Virus record (IMG/VR): IMGVR_UViG_3300028394_000268
Location: 1-27,424 of that record
From: a virus
Length of the DNA: 27,424 nt
Reading direction: 5' to 3' (one strand)
The position numbers were made by a program, and so were the translations under genes. This document shows positions 2,275 through 14,281 of the stretch, piece after piece (position 1 is the first letter of the stretch; each line of letters starts with the position of its first letter). Under the pieces are notes generated by a model, which had not been told where the DNA came from, made no database searches, and saw nothing but the letters and a program-made list of their open reading frames with translations.

Positions 2275-2475
2275 TTACCGAACATCAATTTCCTGATCTC
2301 CAAAGGTACTATCATCTTCCAGGCAAATATAAGAAATCTCATCTTGACCCTCAAGATCTAACCATTCCTCAAATTCACCTGCGATGGCACGGGCAGTATC
2401 ATAATCCTCTGCTGTTCGAATTCGTTCAATTGCCCAGTCACGAACCCGCACAATGGGTTCAATTTGTGTTTCCAT
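2275..2475 (-). CDS. acidic hypothetical protein, 66 aa
   Basis: Starts at an ATG at 2475, inside the last codons of the SegE-like gene (17-nt overlap), preceded by GAAAAGA as a plausible ribosome site. The protein is predicted helical, with the segment VRDWAIERIRTAEDYDTARA followed by an acidic C-terminus (EEWLDLEGQDEIS, LEDDSTFGDQE). I do not recognise it. The frame is open further upstream to 2691, but that part overlaps the SegE-like gene and reads as low-complexity S/T/K sequence, so I reject the longer form. Confidence 0.65.
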   Translation of the reverse strand: METQIEPIVRVRDWAIERIRTAEDYDTARAIAGEFEEWLDLEGQDEISYICLEDDSTFGDQEIDVR

Positions 2476-2902
2476 AATAATCTTTTCGGAAGTATCGAGA
2501 GAGGATATTGCTATTATACCAGGCTGGTGTTCCGTCGTCAAGGGATTCTGTGAGGACGTTGTTGATAAAGAGTTGTCGGGTCTCTTCGAAATTTGTTTTT
2601 CCTTTTGTTCTGTGAAGTGAAAGAATATTTCTTGTAAAATTTTCTTTACCAAATTTCTGAATGTCTTCTTTAAGTTCCGGACAGGATCCATAATATTTCT
2701 TCCAATCTGACTCTGATTTTACTTTTCTATTTTTTCCTTTTGGTGTTCTGAACTGCCACAGATACTTTCTACCAATATAACTCCGATGATTGAGAGTATT
2801 TCGTATAAGATATACAAACCCGTAATAATCTTGGATCTGATCTGAGTCAAATATTTTCTCTTCATAAATCCAAGGATTATCGTAGTTACATCCTATACTC
2901 AT
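2459..2902 (-). CDS. SegE-like GIY-YIG endonuclease
   Basis: A 147-aa protein with the GIY-YIG core: GFVYLIRN at about residues 28-35 and SYIGRKYLW about ten residues later. Next come the TPKGKNRKVKSESDWKKYYGS and FGKENFTRNILSLHRTKGKTNFEE segments typical of the T4 SegE family, and a late NSNILSRYFRK. These are site-specific DNA endonucleases, often homing enzymes. Here it is a free-standing gene in the nrd operon, overlapping the 54-aa gene upstream (17 nt) and the 66-aa gene downstream. A TTG at 2905 is an alternative start. Whether it still homes or has been domesticated cannot be read from the sequence. Confidence 0.8.
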   Translation of the reverse strand: MSIGCNYDNPWIYEEKIFDSDQIQDYYGFVYLIRNTLNHRSYIGRKYLWQFRTPKGKNRKVKSESDWKKYYGSCPELKEDIQKFGKENFTRNILSLHRTKGKTNFEETRQLFINNVLTESLDDGTPAWYNSNILSRYFRKDYYGNTN

Positions 2903-3050
2903 CAATAATGTTAAGAACTTCGTCCAAATATTTATGAGCCAGAACCTTGGGATTCGTAATAAGTTGATTTACTTGATCTTCATATAACTTATGTTTTAAT
3001 TTCAATACACGAACTTTGAGTTCGTCTTTACTCATTTCATTTCTTGGCAT
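2886..3050 (-). CDS. small hypothetical protein, 54 aa
   Basis: An uninterrupted frame from ATG (3050) to TAA (2886). The product begins MPRNEMSKDELKVRVLKLKH and ends NIIDEYRM. It is predicted all-helical and contains a KxKVRVLKLKHKLYEDQ amphipathic stretch. The gene starts directly after the T-run of the nrdB terminator and overlaps the SegE-like start by 17 nt. The compact overlap, normal codon use and lack of other content in this gap make it a likely real gene. Function unknown. Confidence 0.65.
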   Translation of the reverse strand: MPRNEMSKDELKVRVLKLKHKLYEDQVNQLITNPKVLAHKYLDEVLNIIDEYRM

Positions 3051-7699: not shown

Positions 7700-8116
7700 T
7701 TATTTTATACGAGTCTGTTCTATACGACGATGATCTTCCATTCCACTTGGAGTAAACCAACCAGATGCCAAACTTGCAAAAAGTGCTACTAATACAGTTA
7801 GAACTGCTCCGGTACCAACAGTCATCCATTTGATTTTTGAAATTTCACCAACTTGATCTTCCAAACCATCAATTCTATCCGATGTTTTTTTATGCTCTTT
7901 TTGATTTTCTTCTTTAAGGTTATCAATCATTTTTAAAATTAAGTCATCGGTTCTTTGACCATATTCAATTTTTTCATCGTGAACTGCAAGCATTTTAATT
8001 ACATTCGTATTAACTTCACTCATTTTTTGAATCGCATCATCAAGTTTGTTGACTATATTTGCAAAGTCAGCAAACTTTTGTTCTAATACGGCAACTTTTA
8101 CGATTTCTTCTGACAT
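7700..8116 (-). CDS. coiled-coil protein with one membrane segment, XhlA-like layout
   Basis: A 138-aa protein. Residues 1-95 form a long charged, heptad-like coiled coil (KFADFANIVNKLDDAIQKM and onward). A hydrophobic segment at about 100-118 (VGTGAVLTVLVALFASLAS) is followed by a short polar tail. This layout resembles the hemolysin XhlA/holin-accessory family, and similar coiled-coil-plus-TM proteins are common in cyanophages. The function is not proven: it may act in lysis or in the virion. An AATAAATA late-promoter-like element lies about 65 nt upstream (8184-8191). Confidence 0.7.
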   Translation of the reverse strand: MSEEIVKVAVLEQKFADFANIVNKLDDAIQKMSEVNTNVIKMLAVHDEKIEYGQRTDDLILKMIDNLKEENQKEHKKTSDRIDGLEDQVGEISKIKWMTVGTGAVLTVLVALFASLASGWFTPSGMEDHRRIEQTRIK

Positions 8117-8754: not shown

Positions 8755-9780
8755 TCATGCAGTTACAGTTAATGTTGTGGTTCCAATACCAACTCCAGAG
8801 AATACTGTTCCTGCACCACCAACATTACGAATAATATCAGAAGTGAATGAACTCGTCACACCGGCACCACCGGAAACATCAGTAATCACTCCAATAAATC
8901 CTCTTGGTACATCAATAAACAGTTTAGTTGCATTCGTGCGAGTGCTGAATGTCACTACAGTTCCAATACCAATCACACTTGCAACTGTAGATGCAGTACC
9001 AATTTGAACAAATGTAGATGCAACAGAAACAATTGGTCTAGTGGTAATTGTACCTGGTCCTACTACACTGATGGAACTTACACCGGCAACAACTCCGGTT
9101 GTATCAGCAACAAAAATATTGGTTGCTCCAATTGCAACGGTTGCATTAATAGTTGTTGTAAGGAAATTCACATTTGCAGCAAGAACCGTAGATGGTGCGG
9201 TGAATGCAAATGCTACACGATTTGTAATCTGTCCGTTAAAACTTGTATTACCAACAATTCCAGTACCATTAATATAATTAAAGACAGTAGATCCGTTCGA
9301 AAAAGATCCTGCTGTTGCAACAATCGCAGTTGTTTCGTTTGCATTATTTGCATCAAGGGCACGAAGGCGAACTGTTGCACCTGCAGAAACATACACTAGT
9401 TCATTAAATACTAAATGAACATATCCAGTTGAACCAGTTGTAATTCCAGTAGTTCCACCAGCACCAATAGAAATCGGAGAAGCAAGATTTACATCTTCAA
9501 AGAAAACAGCAACTGGGGTTGCAATTGCAAGTCCAGTAGATCCAAGGTCAGATGGAACACCAGCAGTATTCAGACCTGCAACTGGAATAAGTATCTCATC
9601 ATAATAATCTGTAGAGAGACCTGATTGTTGAGAAGTACCATATTTCCTATAAACCCATCCACGAACGTCTGCAAAGCAGTTGTGTGGAGTGTTATTTCTA
9701 TCAGTGTCCTGTAAAAACTTGGGAATAGCATAATTATTATCAGATGTTTCAGTAGTCGTGGAAATTCCCCAGAGTGCCAT
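8755..9780 (-). CDS. virion structural protein (MALWGISTTTE family)
   Basis: A 341-aa protein. The N-terminus MALWGISTTTETSDNNYAIP and the segment HNCFADVRGWVYRKYGTSQQSGLS are signatures of an abundant structural protein of T4-like cyanophages. The rest is Gly/Thr/Val/Ala-rich with almost no charge (ATNIFVADTTGVVAGVSSISV, GIGTVVTFS), as in beta-sandwich or fibre-like proteins. AGG lies 8 nt before the ATG, and a T4 late promoter TATAAATA lies about 33 nt upstream. The exact location (head decoration, tail or fibre) is not evident. Confidence 0.85.
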   Translation of the reverse strand: MALWGISTTTETSDNNYAIPKFLQDTDRNNTPHNCFADVRGWVYRKYGTSQQSGLSTDYYDEILIPVAGLNTAGVPSDLGSTGLAIATPVAVFFEDVNLASPISIGAGGTTGITTGSTGYVHLVFNELVYVSAGATVRLRALDANNANETTAIVATAGSFSNGSTVFNYINGTGIVGNTSFNGQITNRVAFAFTAPSTVLAANVNFLTTTINATVAIGATNIFVADTTGVVAGVSSISVVGPGTITTRPIVSVASTFVQIGTASTVASVIGIGTVVTFSTRTNATKLFIDVPRGFIGVITDVSGGAGVTSSFTSDIIRNVGGAGTVFSGVGIGTTTLTVTA

Positions 9781-9812: not shown

Positions 9813-9820
9813 TATTTATA
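9813..9820 (-). promoter_or_regulatory. T4-type late promoter
   Basis: Exact TATAAATA on the minus strand, starting where the T-run of the preceding terminator ends, about 33 nt from the structural gene's ATG. In T4, gp55 with gp33 and the gp45 clamp recognise this motif. It implies late expression of the structural protein and the small genes after it. Confidence 0.8.
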
Positions 9821-9854
9821 AAAAAAGAGACCTCGTTAATTTGAGAGTCTCTTT
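9821..9854 (-). terminator. intrinsic terminator fused to a late promoter
   Basis: Minus strand: AAAGAGAC (9847-9854) pairs with GTCTCTTT (9824-9831), with an inner CTC/GAG extension past a bulged T. Seven T follow. The stem overlaps the stop codon of the 50-aa gene, and the T-run leads into TATAAATA. Confidence 0.85.
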
Positions 9855-10005
9855 ATTTTTTTGCAATAATCATCAAAACATTTCTGACAAATTGATAAAC
9901 ACTATTTGCCTTTATGTTTTGATTTTGCCCAATGTATTCTGATAGGGAGAATAACAGTCCAAAGGCAACTGTGAATCCCCAGTTTGCGAGAAAGCAAGTA
10001 ATCAC
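9853..10005 (-). CDS. small membrane protein, 50 aa
   Basis: GTG start at 10005 overlapping the stop of the 57-aa gene (GTGA), so translation is coupled. The product begins MITCFLANWGFTVAFGLLFS and ends VRNVLMIIAKK. It has one hydrophobic segment at about residues 3-20 followed by SEYIGQNQNIKANSVYQFVRN. Small proteins with GFxxxFGLxxxLSEYIG patterns recur in marine T4-like phages. A holin-like or virion role is possible but unproven. Reality is supported by the overlapping start, a terminator placed exactly at the stop, and the TM-plus-helix design. Confidence 0.72.
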   Translation of the reverse strand: MITCFLANWGFTVAFGLLFSLSEYIGQNQNIKANSVYQFVRNVLMIIAKK

Positions 10006-10175
10006 TTACAGTTCTTCAGAAGAGCAACTCTTACAGTAGAGGCAATTACATTATCAATATCATTATCAGTGGTCTTTACATAACGGTCAATCAAATCTAC
10101 AACCAGTTTCTTTACCTGGCAGGAATTGAGAAACTGAATCAAAATTGGCTTAATTAAATTTACTACGTTTGCCAT
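10002..10175 (-). CDS. small conserved cyanophage protein, 57 aa
   Basis: ATG at 10175 with AGGA 8 nt upstream. The frame is uninterrupted to TGA at 10002. The helical product begins MANVVNLIKPILIQFLNSCQ and continues VKKLVVDLIDRYVKTTDNDID, ending VALLKNCK. This sequence pattern (IQFLNSCQVKKLVVDLL...TTDND) is one I associate with a small protein of T4-like cyanophages near structural genes; the function is not known. A CTAAATA element, a possible late-promoter variant, lies about 25 nt upstream. It is coupled to the 50-aa membrane protein, suggesting a functional pair. Confidence 0.75.
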   Translation of the reverse strand: MANVVNLIKPILIQFLNSCQVKKLVVDLIDRYVKTTDNDIDNVIASTVRVALLKNCK

Positions 10176-10226
10176 TTTAAAAATCCTATTACAACAATTC
10201 TATTTAGAGATTTTACCTAATTTTAA

Positions 10227-11861
10227 CTATTTTTTAGGATGCATAACTTTTTTAGGGTCATAGTTAGGACTATTAGGATTACTGGGAGAATTCTTCCACC
10301 CTTTTTCAAACGCAGGAGTGTTCATTGCATTTACTCTATCAACAAACATTTTTGTATTATCCTGTCGTTCCACTTCAGAAATCTGCTCACCTTCTGGTTG
10401 ATAAGATGCTTCTAAAGGAAGTTTTCCAGACTTCTGCATTTGAAGTTTTTGACGATCAATTTGCTGCTTTTTTTGCTGAATCATTTTTAGGTTAGCAATC
10501 TTAGACTTGTCCAGAAGTTCTTTTTTTTTGTCTACCATAGAATTTACTGGTTCTGTGGTGGGTTCAGGAAGCATTTGTTCCGAAACTTTCTTTTCTGGAA
10601 GTCCTTTGTGCTTTGTCTTTGCAAAATCCTTTGCTTGTTTCGTAGTCATTCCTGCAGCAGCAGATGCAACTTCTGATGATGGTGCTTTCATTTCACCACT
10701 TTTTGTTGCATAAACCATACCCATAAAACGTTGTTGGGCTTTGCTTAGTGCCTTTTCATCAATCTGCATTTGCTCATTCTGAATAGAACCAATCAGATCG
10801 TCAAGTTTAGATCTTTTTCTTTTTGGTGCTGGTTTTGCCTTTGCCTTTGGTGCTGGTGCTGGTTTTGCCTTCTTTTGAGTGGGTGGGGTATAAGAACCAC
10901 TACTTACTCTTTCCTTGGTTCCTGCACCTGCACCACGATATGTTGATGCAGATCTAGGTTTTGTCTGTGCAGGACTTGGAGTAGTGTCTCCACCTTCCAT
11001 TTTACGAGCAACACCCAGAGCACCCTTTGCGACTTTTCTTGCTCCTGTTGCGACTGCTTGTTTTGCCGACTTCTTAAGGTTAGAAAGATATTTTTTTGCT
11101 GTTCCTAAAAGTCCTTGCTTTTTCTTTTCTGTGGTCGGAGTATCGTGTCCAAAAGTAACCTTTGCTTCGGTTAGAGCATATTCAAGTGCCTCTTCAATTT
11201 CATCCTCATCATATCCGTCATCTAAAAGTTCAGTATAAACATTTTCAACAATATAATCCAACTCATCAAGTTCAACAATTTCAAGCAGAGTTCCACCAAG
11301 ATTTTCTACAGAATCTTTGATTGTTGGATTAATCGTGATTTTGTTTTTTATATTTTTTTTTTCTTCAACTTTTTTTGCTGCCTCAATATCATCCATTACT
11401 TCGGCAAGGTCATTTCTCCAGTTTGAGAAACCTTCCTTCACTTTCTTCTTTGAGATTGCCTTACCAACTACTTTGCGACGATTGTGAAGATACTTATCTG
11501 ACTTATCGGTATCACCATCATTATCAATATCAGCATCTTCTTGGCCTACTGGGTCAAGTTTTTTCTTTGCCTCACCAACAAACTCTTCATTATGTGCTGG
11601 TGATTTCCCCAGTCTCTTAAATCTTTTATCTTCATCATCACTAGAAATTGCAGATACAAGTTTTACCATTCTATTCATAGCAGCATCTCTCTTTGCTGCA
11701 TACTTTTTAGTTTTAGGAGTAGAAACTACTTCACGACCAAGGTTTCCTGCCTTGCGTTGCATCTCATTTTTGTTTCTTTGCTTGAGTTCTACTTTGCCCT
11801 CATCAACGGCAACTTGCTCCAAATAAACCTTTGAAATATCGTTAAGAATATTATGAGACAT
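10227..11861 (-). CDS. internal-head or prohead-core-like protein, 544 aa
   Basis: A highly charged, low-hydrophobicity protein. Residues 1-100 are basic and helical. Residues 111-122 ([12 protein letters not shown]) form a perfect 12-residue EF-hand/dockerin-type calcium loop with Asp at 1, 3, 5, 7, 9 and 12. Residues about 185-232 are a strongly acidic helical domain ending in LTEA, which fits the T4 gp21 protease rule (L/I-x-E, cut). The part after it is basic with Pro/Ala/Lys repeats ([20 protein letters not shown]). An acidic pro-part cut from a basic DNA-binding part suits a scaffold or internal protein, by inference. The gene overlaps the upstream nucleotidyltransferase gene by 11 nt. 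The C-terminus ([22 protein letters not shown]) is a separate module. Confidence 0.75.
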
Positions 11862-13161
11862 TAGAATAAGTGCTTTCTTTTATTTTTCTATATTTATTTA
11901 TGAATTCTTTTACATTACTATAACCTTTATAAGGTTTTGCTCCGTGTTGTAGATTTGTTTTATCACCTTTTTCAAATCCCGGAGTCATATCTGATGCATA
12001 CTTAAAATACCCAGAGGTGCCGACAAGAGTATTTGGTTTTCCAGGAAGTCTTTCCTTTCTGCTCATTTTTGTTTCTGTATATTCCATTACATCCTTTATC
12101 CAGGATTTAAACATATAGTCTTGTTCAGTAACACAAATCAAATGATTGGTACCTCTACGGGTAATTCTACCAACCAGACCAGTATTTAAGTTCTCTACAA
12201 TATCACCAAGTTTATAGATTTTTTCTTTTACATAATTTTCACGAAGATTTTTCATATCGTACTTCGGAGCAATCTGCCATAACTCAACAACTTCTTTTTT
12301 CTTTTTCTTTGCTCCCATTCCTTGACGAACTGCATTAAAAAGACTTTGCGTATCTGCATCATTTAGTGTTTTTGGAGTTCCTCTGCGGAAAGAATCAAAA
12401 TCATTATCTAAAACTGCCTTTCTCATTTTAGATGCAGACATTCCTTCCACACCATCAGCATCAGCATCTCTTACTCCTGCAGAAACTACACGAATTAAAT
12501 CAAAGTTATAAAGATCTCCATTATACTTCTGTGCAAGATTATCAAACTCTGCCTGACGATCTGATCCAACAACAATATTCACATTTGAATATCCTTCTTC
12601 ATTTGCAGCAATCAAAACATCAAAAATAGATCTCATATCATTATCATTAACAATCATTTCTTCAAAATCAGGAAACATCTTCTTCATAAATGAAATCTTC
12701 ATATCAGGATCTAAAGGATTTTTCTTTGGATCTTGAGTTCTTGATGGATAAATTTTAACATCTCCACCAGAAGATATTCTCTTTGCAGATTTAAGAAGTT
12801 TATCGTGTCCAATTGTTGGTGGATTAAAACGACCAAATACAATCGTCAGAGGTTGAGTTTCTTGTGATTGATCTTCAGGAGAAGGTGATGCTTTTTTTAA
12901 TTGTACTGGTTCAACAACTGATGCTGCTTTTGATTTAATTGCGGGAGAAATATTTCGTTGAGTATCTACTTCTGGTTCTTCTTTTTGTTTTGGGGATTTC
13001 TTACCCGAAAATTTTAGTTTTCCATTTTCAGTTCTTGCAACAATTTTACCAGACCTATCAATCCACCCACCATGACCATCTCCAGACAATCCAAGTTTAT
13101 GAGCTTGCATTGATGCCTGAGATTCTGCTGCTTCAGATAAAAATTGGAAAAATTTTTTCAT
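11851..13161 (-). CDS. virion-targeted nucleotidyltransferase (NMNAT-like)
   Basis: A 436-aa mosaic protein. Residues 1-10, [10 protein letters not shown] followed by A, resemble the T4 capsid-targeting sequence (MKTYQEFIAE, cut after E10 by gp21) in length and cut site. Residues about 17-52 ([21 protein letters not shown]) are a module seen in other cyanophage proteins. Residues 105-290 are a nucleotidyltransferase fold: [10 protein letters not shown] (110-119) is the HxGH-type site, SDR is at 200-202, and SASKMR (242-247) is the ISSTxxR-type site, as in nicotinamide-nucleotide adenylyltransferases. A KOW-like part (about 318-362, [19 protein letters not shown]) and a basic C-terminal module follow. 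The product could be NAD or another nucleotidyl compound. The substrate is not certain. Confidence 0.82.
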
Positions 13162-13184
13162 ATTGTGTTTTGGTATACCTTTAT

Positions 13185-13382
13185 TTATTTCTCATTTCTC
13201 AATTCATTTTTAATCTCATTTTTCAATCTTTTACGATTTTCAATTTCTGATGTTCTTTGTCTTTGAGCATCAGCAGAAGATCTAGATTTCTCTTTAAATC
13301 TCTTCTGTTGATCTAATGACCTTTGACGTAGTTCTATTCTACGTTGCTCAATATCCTCAGAAAACTGATGATATGTTTTCAT
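13185..13382 (-). CDS. small basic protein with capsid-targeting-like N-terminus
   Basis: A 65-aa, nearly all-helical and very charged protein (about 22 Arg/Lys). It starts MKTYHQFSED, close to the T4 internal-protein targeting sequence MKTYQEFIAE, then continues EQRRIELRQRSLDQQKRFKEK. Its start overlaps the stop of the 291-aa gene (ATGA). Size, charge and N-terminus fit a packaged internal head protein like T4 IPI-IPIII. This is inference; no enzymatic motif is visible. Confidence 0.72.
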   Translation of the reverse strand: MKTYHQFSEDIEQRRIELRQRSLDQQKRFKEKSRSSADAQRQRTSEIENRKRLKNEIKNELRNEK

Positions 13383-14254
13383 TTGTAAGCAACTTTTTTG
13401 AGATCAGGATTTCTTTTTCTTGCTGTTCTTTGGATAGGTAATTCTGGAATTGAATTTTTTTTAGAATCAGGACGTTGAGGTTTTTCTTCGGCATCAAGTC
13501 TATCACGAATTCTTTGTACAGTAGCAAGTTCACTTGGTTTAAGTGGGAATGAATATTTTTTCTCAACAATATCATCCCTCCACTCTTCACTCATATTCAC
13601 CATAATGCATTCTGCTGCTTCTTCAGTATCAGCATAACCTTCATCAATCAAGTGTGAAAGAATAATGTTGTATAGATCTGTTTCCTCAGTAAATCCTTTT
13701 GCAAAGGCACGGGCAGCATTTCCAACCTTACCTGCGGTTACTTTAGTTGCCGCACCCATTCCGGAAGTGGCAGCCTTGTGTCTTTCAATACCCTTAAGAA
13801 CAGCACCGGCAACACGATCCAAAAGTCCTTTCTTTTTTGGTTGTTGCTTTGATGCACTAACCATAGCATCTTGTCTTTGAAGTGCTGCTTTCATTCCAGA
13901 AGGTCGTTCAGATGATTCTGCTTCTTTTCTTTCTTCCTTTTTCTTACGAAGTCTTTCTAAAGATTTTCCAGTAGGTTTTCCACTTTTAAATGGTGTTCCT
14001 TTAGCGGTAACTGGTTCAATTCTAACTCTACCAGCCCTTGCTTCTGTCAAATAATAATTTTCAGAAATATCATAAACAAACTCGACAAATTCTTCTACAC
14101 CAAGTTCTTCAATCAGAATTTCAACACCAATTTCATTTAAACCCATTTCACAAAAATAATGAGAGGCAATTTCTACTTCTTTTTCATTAGATTGTTCATT
14201 TTTATAAACATTCAAATATGCTTCTTGTAAATTACGGAGTTCTTGTACGTTCAT
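13379..14254 (-). CDS. prohead-core/internal-protein-like, 291 aa
   Basis: Begins MNVQELRNLQEAYLNVYKNE, a common opening of cyanophage virion proteins. An acidic helical domain (residues about 37-68, LNEIGVEILIEELGVEEFVEFVYDIS) ends in LTEA at 69-72, a potential gp21 protease site. A basic region rich in Lys, Arg, Ser and Ala follows (KSLERLRKKKEERKEAES). A second helical module (about 190-235) begins DLYNIILSHLIDEGYADTEE. The acidic-domain, LTE/A, basic-tail plan is shared with the 544-aa protein. It is the first gene after a late promoter, leading the virion island. The exact role is unknown. Confidence 0.75.
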   Translation of the reverse strand: MNVQELRNLQEAYLNVYKNEQSNEKEVEIASHYFCEMGLNEIGVEILIEELGVEEFVEFVYDISENYYLTEARAGRVRIEPVTAKGTPFKSGKPTGKSLERLRKKKEERKEAESSERPSGMKAALQRQDAMVSASKQQPKKKGLLDRVAGAVLKGIERHKAATSGMGAATKVTAGKVGNAARAFAKGFTEETDLYNIILSHLIDEGYADTEEAAECIMVNMSEEWRDDIVEKKYSFPLKPSELATVQRIRDRLDAEEKPQRPDSKKNSIPELPIQRTARKRNPDLKKVAYK

Positions 14255-14273
14255 CTTATAAAAACTTTTTAAT

Positions 14274-14281
14274 TATTTATA
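14274..14281 (-). promoter_or_regulatory. T4-type late promoter of the virion island
   Basis: Exact TATAAATA on the minus strand, 19 nt upstream of the ATG at 14254. It begins in the last bases of the mazG terminator's T-run, so the replication transcript ends where late transcription begins. Confidence 0.8.

Follow-up and report, generated by a model that had tools for sequence, protein, structure and literature searches.

A conserved nucleotidyltransferase bearing a T4-type capsid-targeting leader in marine cyanophages: a probable late cargo of the phage head

In the T4 internal protein IPIII, residues 4 and 7 of the N-terminal leader are the main determinants of targeting, and residues 8 and 10 those of processing (PMC9026906, a review of L. 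Black's work). A second body of relevant work concerns T4-GC190, a core protein of the marine T4-like cyanophages (PMC3037559), the label carried in S-SM1 and P-SSM2 by a gene of family phrog_395. Mass spectrometry of purified virions has placed the orthologue in S-SM1 (PMC3037559), and purified virions of S-SCSM1 (ORF91; PMC9602691, marked in NC_070962) and S-SZBM1 (S-SZBM1_140, the sole enzyme among 30 proteins; PMC9146016) likewise contain it; a cytidylyltransferase was detected with 3 peptides in virions of S-CREM2 (PMC10665884), and the enzyme was not detected in those of S-PM2 (PMC3037559). Its level in S-SZBM1 virions is low (emPAI 0.26 against 2.83 for the portal; PMC9146016), the S-SCSM1 virion list includes a translation repressor (NC_070962), and carry-over was named as possible by the authors of both the S-SCSM1 and S-CREM2 studies (PMC9602691, PMC10665884). 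Cyanophage virion proteomics has kept finding this enzyme, and its authors were unable to separate cargo from carry-over; virion presence itself, having already been published for orthologues, is not new. No paper tying the enzyme to a capsid-targeting sequence or cut site was found in the literature searched, and none of it appears to name the leader as the enzyme's route into the head.

The window analysed here, a virus fragment of 27,424 nt taken as a whole, has a cyanophage-type gene content (ribonucleotide reductase, primase, helicase, UvsX and DNA polymerase), and also codes for a clamp, clamp loader, MazG and a CobS-like protein. The open reading frame singled out in a preliminary description was confirmed, with an ATG start and on the minus strand, and the leader, HIGH-type motif and SASKMR site reported there were all found in its translation (Table 1). 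The product matched phrog_395 (E 8e-106, residues 98-398), with relatives in 532 phage records, mostly of cyanophages. An AlphaFold model returned the succession of helix, small module, disordered stretch (residues 55-100), core and beta domain set out in Table 1, with a pLDDT of ~90 within the core. No other protein encoded by the same genomes was found to contain the C-terminal domain.

Table 1. Features of the enzyme gene and its surroundings in the 27,424-nt window (residue numbers are those of the enzyme; here and in the text a slash within a sequence marks a cut position, mostly presumed).
Feature	Coordinates	Strand	Basis
Leader-bearing nucleotidyltransferase gene (phrog_395)	11851..13161	-	436 aa, 532 phage records match
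Leader, residues 1-10; cleavage predicted to precede A11, helix predicted at 2-12	13132..13161	-	sequence, pattern, alignment, model
Small N-module, residues 15-51, SQASMQAxKLxLxxDGHGGWxDxxG...	13009..13119	-	alignment; pLDDT ~85 at 21-50
Variable low-complexity linker, residues 52-101	12859..13008	-	alignment; pLDDT <50 at 55-100
Nucleotidyltransferase core, residues 102-285, adenylyltransferase fold	12307..12858	-	profile, model, structure comparison
HIGH-type motif, residues 110-119	12805..12834	-	247/247 relatives
GSDR, residues 199-202, G-x-D motif	12556..12567	-	sequence, alignment
SASKMR, residues 242-247, ISSTxxR-type motif	12421..12438	-	sequence, alignment
C-terminal beta domain, residues 303-360	12082..12255	-	model, relatives
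T4-type late promoter motif AATAAATA, begins 28 nt before the enzyme ATG	13182..13189	-	motif scan; motif from PMC2984593
Downstream neighbour, coding for a mosaic protein of 544 aa that is related to gp280, a virion protein of S-SCSM1; preceded by a late promoter	10227..11861	-	
Upstream neighbour, 291 aa, start MNVQELRNLQE/AYLNVY, late promoter upstream	13379..14254	-	

The leader pattern, M[KR]x[FYLIMV]xx[FYLIMV][LIMVFY]xE[AGST], was sought at every possible start in all six frames. The whole T4 genome gave exactly two matches, annotated ipII and ipIII, as expected of an expression built from T4 and the present leader, so that its informative part is its rarity elsewhere; T4 IPI and Alt are missed by it. 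Bellamy, S-SM1 and Syn9 each yielded a single match, the orthologue of this enzyme, and S-SCSM1, S-SZBM1 and P-SSM2 yielded two to four, the enzyme leader of S-SZBM1 (MRFRQFIIE/A) being one residue shorter and found by a length-flexible form of the pattern. By chance, 0.004 matches per genome would be expected when judged from internal density, and 0.015 when judged from shuffled N-termini.

When relatives were gathered with seeds from the enzyme core only, leaving the leader unused, 77 of 78 complete N-termini proved to carry it, the lone exception reading MKTFFSFLTE/V. Throughout 318 mutually non-independent relatives from three main clades, the spacing F-x-x-F-[LI]-x-E/A was nearly invariant: F4, F7, L/I8, E10 and A11 never or hardly change and positions 3, 5, 6 and 9 vary, and in the alignment of relatives the leader and cut site are conserved whereas the linker is not. 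The invariant sites include those that matter in IPIII, so that, judged by sequence, the leader resembles that of IPIII by position and not just in appearance; it has the ~10 residues, the targeting and processing residues and the [LI]xE/[AGS] end of T4-type capsid-targeting proteins. The likeness to a T4 internal-protein leader asserted in the preliminary description holds in pattern specificity, rarity and conservation, and head targeting with cutting by the prohead protease is very likely. A recognisable leader with a defined cut site renders the choice between cargo and carry-over decidable by one peptide.

Sites near residues 50-65 of the major capsid proteins, where the propeptide would end, read FLSE/A in P-SSM2, FLAE/A in S-SCSM1, ILTE/A in S-SZBM1 and FLTE/A in T4; in the capsid proteins of S-SM1, Syn9 and Bellamy, T or Q follows the presumed cut glutamate. 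S-SZBM1, S-SCSM1 and P-SSM2 thus combine (F/I)LxE/A capsid sites with gp21 and gp22 homologues, genes that lie outside the window, and the motifs suggest that capsid protein and enzyme may share a cut rule. An excess of cut motifs in gp22, assessed with composition-controlled shuffles, was clear in T4 and S-SCSM1 (0/2000), weak in S-SZBM1 and Bellamy, and not significant in S-SM1, Syn9 and P-SSM2; being significant in some phages only, it was not relied upon.

The cyanophage late promoter is of T4 type and reads NATAAATA (PMC2984593). Twelve copies of the motif were present in the window, all on the coding strand, a number close to what chance would give at this high AT content (mean 9.5, both strands counted). 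Position relative to genes was more telling: copies lay within 80 nt of the start of the enzyme gene (-28), its upstream (-27) and downstream (-41/-37) neighbours and the gene at 8755-9780 (-40), and of one further gene (7700-8116, at -75), and before none of the 23 others. The motif thereby precedes 4/4 virion-type genes against 1/24 others, with a p value (2.4e-4) that is only indicative because the choice of virion-type genes drew partly on the S-SCSM1 comparison. An independent check in S-SZBM1 placed the motif before 11/30 virion genes established by mass spectrometry against 7/188 others (p 9e-7), in S-SCSM1 it precedes the enzyme and 4/5 neighbouring virion genes, and 113/156 same-clade relatives have it within 60 nt of the enzyme start. 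A direct late promoter is absent before the enzyme in the S-SM1 clade and nearly absent in the S-SZBM1 clade. Positions 9813-14280 of the window form an island of late-promoter motifs inside a block of replication genes, marking virion-type genes. By its promoter motif, the enzyme would be expressed in time for head assembly.

The head packing proposed in the preliminary description is supported by the specificity and conservation of the leader, the matching capsid cut motif, the late promoter and published mass spectrometry, which for orthologues contradicts an absence from virions; the cut at A11 and the injection stand by analogy. Packaging of a conserved cyanophage enzyme by way of a T4-type capsid-targeting leader is strongly supported. 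In the favoured model the gene would be transcribed late from the NATAAATA promoter, and the first ten residues, serving as a capsid-targeting sequence of T4 type, would attach the enzyme to the prohead core, after which the shell would form. A gp21-type prohead protease would cut after E10 and digest the core, DNA would be packed around the freed 426-aa enzyme, kept in the head at low copy, and the enzyme would enter the next cell together with the DNA. In that cell it would work as a nucleotidyltransferase, with NMN or NaMN as the most likely substrate for adenylation. We infer the cleavage at A11, the injection and the action before phage gene expression from T4, and likewise infer the substrate and the benefit; read as a whole, as a late, leader-targeted head cargo that is cut, injected and likely to act on NMN or NaMN, the model is probably correct. 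Should NAD synthesis at entry prove to be its activity, the phage head would be carrying a metabolic enzyme that works ahead of phage gene expression.

With respect to catalysis, GRFNPP[TH]xGH, S[AS]SxxR and GxDR were intact in 247/247 distinct relatives, so that the replacement of catalytic residues envisaged in the preliminary description was not encountered, and the HIGH and SxSxxR motifs lie on a Rossmann-like adenylyltransferase fold, as in the HIGH superfamily of nucleotidyltransferases. Profile matches among 40 relatives leaned towards NadD (TIGR00482, 29/40) and NadR (TIGR01526, 27/40) as against CoaD (3/40), but no member shown scored above ~25 bits: the present protein reached 12.4 bits and the S-SZBM1 orthologue 25.3 and 20 bits, against cut-offs of 112.45 (TIGR00482) and 341.15 (TIGR01526). 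It is accordingly best named a HIGH-superfamily nucleotidyltransferase, NMNAT-like at best, since the profiles fall below cut-off and the structural comparisons come close to a tie. A sequence search of solved structures returned nothing significant.

That the enzyme is packaged and injected and yet acts on another substrate, such as phosphopantetheine or a different nucleotide acceptor, is a substantial possibility, albeit one falling short of even chances. PPAT gave the best structural match (Z 13.7, against 12.3-13.0 for NadD, NadM and NMNAT) and its profile was also reached, at E 0.047, and the curated NAD-family scores are as low as stated; the G-S-D motif and the preponderance of NadD and NadR over CoaD profile matches point the other way. 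Foldseek/VIA-align was discarded as a substrate discriminator, since PPAT and NadD/NMNAT were not separated among the families compared. NMN or NaMN is our best guess from sequence. Seven phages, namely T4 and six cyanophages, gave no match to the NAMPT/NAPRT family (PF04095) while controls were detected, the window being a genome fragment, and a lone NMNAT would therefore need host NMN or NaMN. NAD supply at entry is possible, and rescue of NAD against NAD-depleting defences is speculation. Elsewhere in the window, the product of 2459-2905 (minus strand) has as its best PHROG family phrog_447, 'NAD synthetase', its other matches being homing endonucleases and its sequence GIY-YIG-looking; the label is probably wrong, and hence provides no NAD context.

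It is unlikely that the protein is instead a head-core component serving assembly, held in the prohead core by its leader, with an activity that is a relic or is exercised only before lysis. Its emPAI in S-SZBM1 virions resembles those of residual protease (0.30) and core protein (0.19), and other core proteins are conceivable in cyanophages, which are without gp67 and gp68 (review PMC2984593); the catalytic motifs, however, are kept in every one of the distinct relatives, which is unexpected of a relic, and what the leaderless relatives of other phages have retained is the core by itself. In ACG-2014e and S-CAM3 (Charybdisvirus/Chalconvirus-type) the core is a leaderless 187-aa protein and the C-terminal domain a separate adjacent gene (L234 1507-2324, L238 1513-2348). 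The leader is likewise missing from the relatives encoded by phages K64-1, Munch and Cr30, so that other lineages have the enzyme without this leader. The annotation of the split C-domain gene, ribonucleotide reductase subunit, is likely wrong. Less likely still is a cytoplasmic auxiliary metabolic enzyme, abundant at lysis and contaminating virions, with an N-terminal motif of some other role, for the carry-over conceded in PMC9602691 and PMC10665884 and the location of the gene among replication genes are opposed by detection in independent virion studies, as the only enzyme in that of S-SZBM1, by conservation of a T4-type leader and cut site but not of the linker, and by the marking of virion genes here with late promoters.

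A leader-targeted head cargo would extend the T4 capsid-targeting rule to an abundant marine virus group, and offer a route to finding other injected proteins there. The product of the upstream neighbour is weakly related to S-SCSM1 virion protein gp089, which has the same kind of start. Upstream of the enzyme, 52 distinct relatives begin in this way (L-x-E/A-Y-x-x-V-Y), none departing from the E, the A or either Y, and a late promoter precedes 55/59 matches; the bodies are mosaic and varied in length, and are not claimed to be unrelated because single-linkage clustering merged 51/52 through shared modules. From its sequence this start is possibly a second leader type. The region beside the enzyme looks like a cargo region. 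More tentatively, and rather doubtfully as yet, the Kyanoviridae may possess a general head-cargo system with two or more leader types: F-x-x-F-L-x-E/A, borne by this enzyme and by variable small proteins encoded just upstream in relatives, and L-x-E/A-Y-x-x-V-Y, borne by the mosaic late proteins beside it. The enzyme would be the conserved cargo of such a system, providing NAD, or some other adenylated cofactor, as the phage enters and ahead of phage gene expression.

Several further proteins were recorded in the course of this survey. A charged 65-aa open reading frame at 13185-13382 (minus strand; MKTYHQFSEDIEQRR...), conserved in relatives, resembles the T4 leader in residues 1-4 and 7 but has D as its tenth residue, a substitution which in T4 IPIII blocks cutting and still allows targeting (PMC9026906). 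In related contigs, at a distance of ~2 kb upstream from the enzyme, lie genes for small proteins (137-158 aa) whose leaders nearly match that of T4, namely MKTFSEFIAEA (L214), MKTFSDFILEA (L221), MKTFYQFMMEA (L226) and MKTFLEFISEA (L213). A late promoter accompanies three of these genes, and by their sequences all four products are internal-protein candidates. Leaders MKSFKSFLSES and MKTFKQFMSES occur in S-SZBM1_191 and S-SCSM1 44215-44535 (phrog_1742), near the large terminase gene, and P-SSM2 (NC_006883) encodes at 169737-171458, shortly after nrdB, a 573-aa hypothetical protein with leader MKSLSQFIIE/T. The small leader-bearing proteins S-SZBM1_191, S-SZBM1_192 and that at S-SCSM1 44215 are not in the published virion proteomes, and a correlation of leader with virion presence is not shown, S-SCSM1 and S-SZBM1 each having two or three leader proteins of which the enzyme alone was detected. 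S-SZBM1_141, S-SM1_189 and S-CAM9 L231 236-1438 represent a different neighbour, DUF6267 (PF19782), with a KWDGAP motif like that of nucleic-acid ligases; phrog_455 matches both this neighbour and the nucleotidyltransferase.

Compared with described systems, the NARP1 pathway of phage NAD+ rebuilding (Adps and Namat) shares the proposed benefit, a supply of NAD against NAD-depleting defence, but its enzymes differ from the cyanophage enzyme, and the seven phages searched held no NAMPT/NAPRT-family gene. NadD, NadR, NMNAT and PPAT (CoaD) have the HIGH fold and the (T/H)xGH and SxSxxR motifs in common with the enzyme, which differs in its 10-18% identity in structural alignments, its scores below curated cut-offs and its extra phage-specific domains. 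The T4-GC190/phrog_395 proteins, annotated as cytidyl- or nicotinamide-mononucleotide adenylyltransferase (S-SM1, S-SCSM1 ORF91, S-SZBM1_140), are orthologous, have the same leader type and occur in virions, the papers found on them naming neither targeting leader nor cut site. T4 Ip1-3, which have only this leader in common, are injected and block GmrSD nucleases (PMC12373910). With T4 IPII and IPIII (MKTYQEFIAE/A) the enzyme shares a 10-residue leader, the arrangement [FY]4 F7 [LI]8 E10 / A11 and a phage group with gp21 and gp22 homologues; the T4 cargo, by way of contrast, is a small variable inhibitor, whereas the predicted cyanophage cargo is an enzyme, conserved and about 290-490 aa long.
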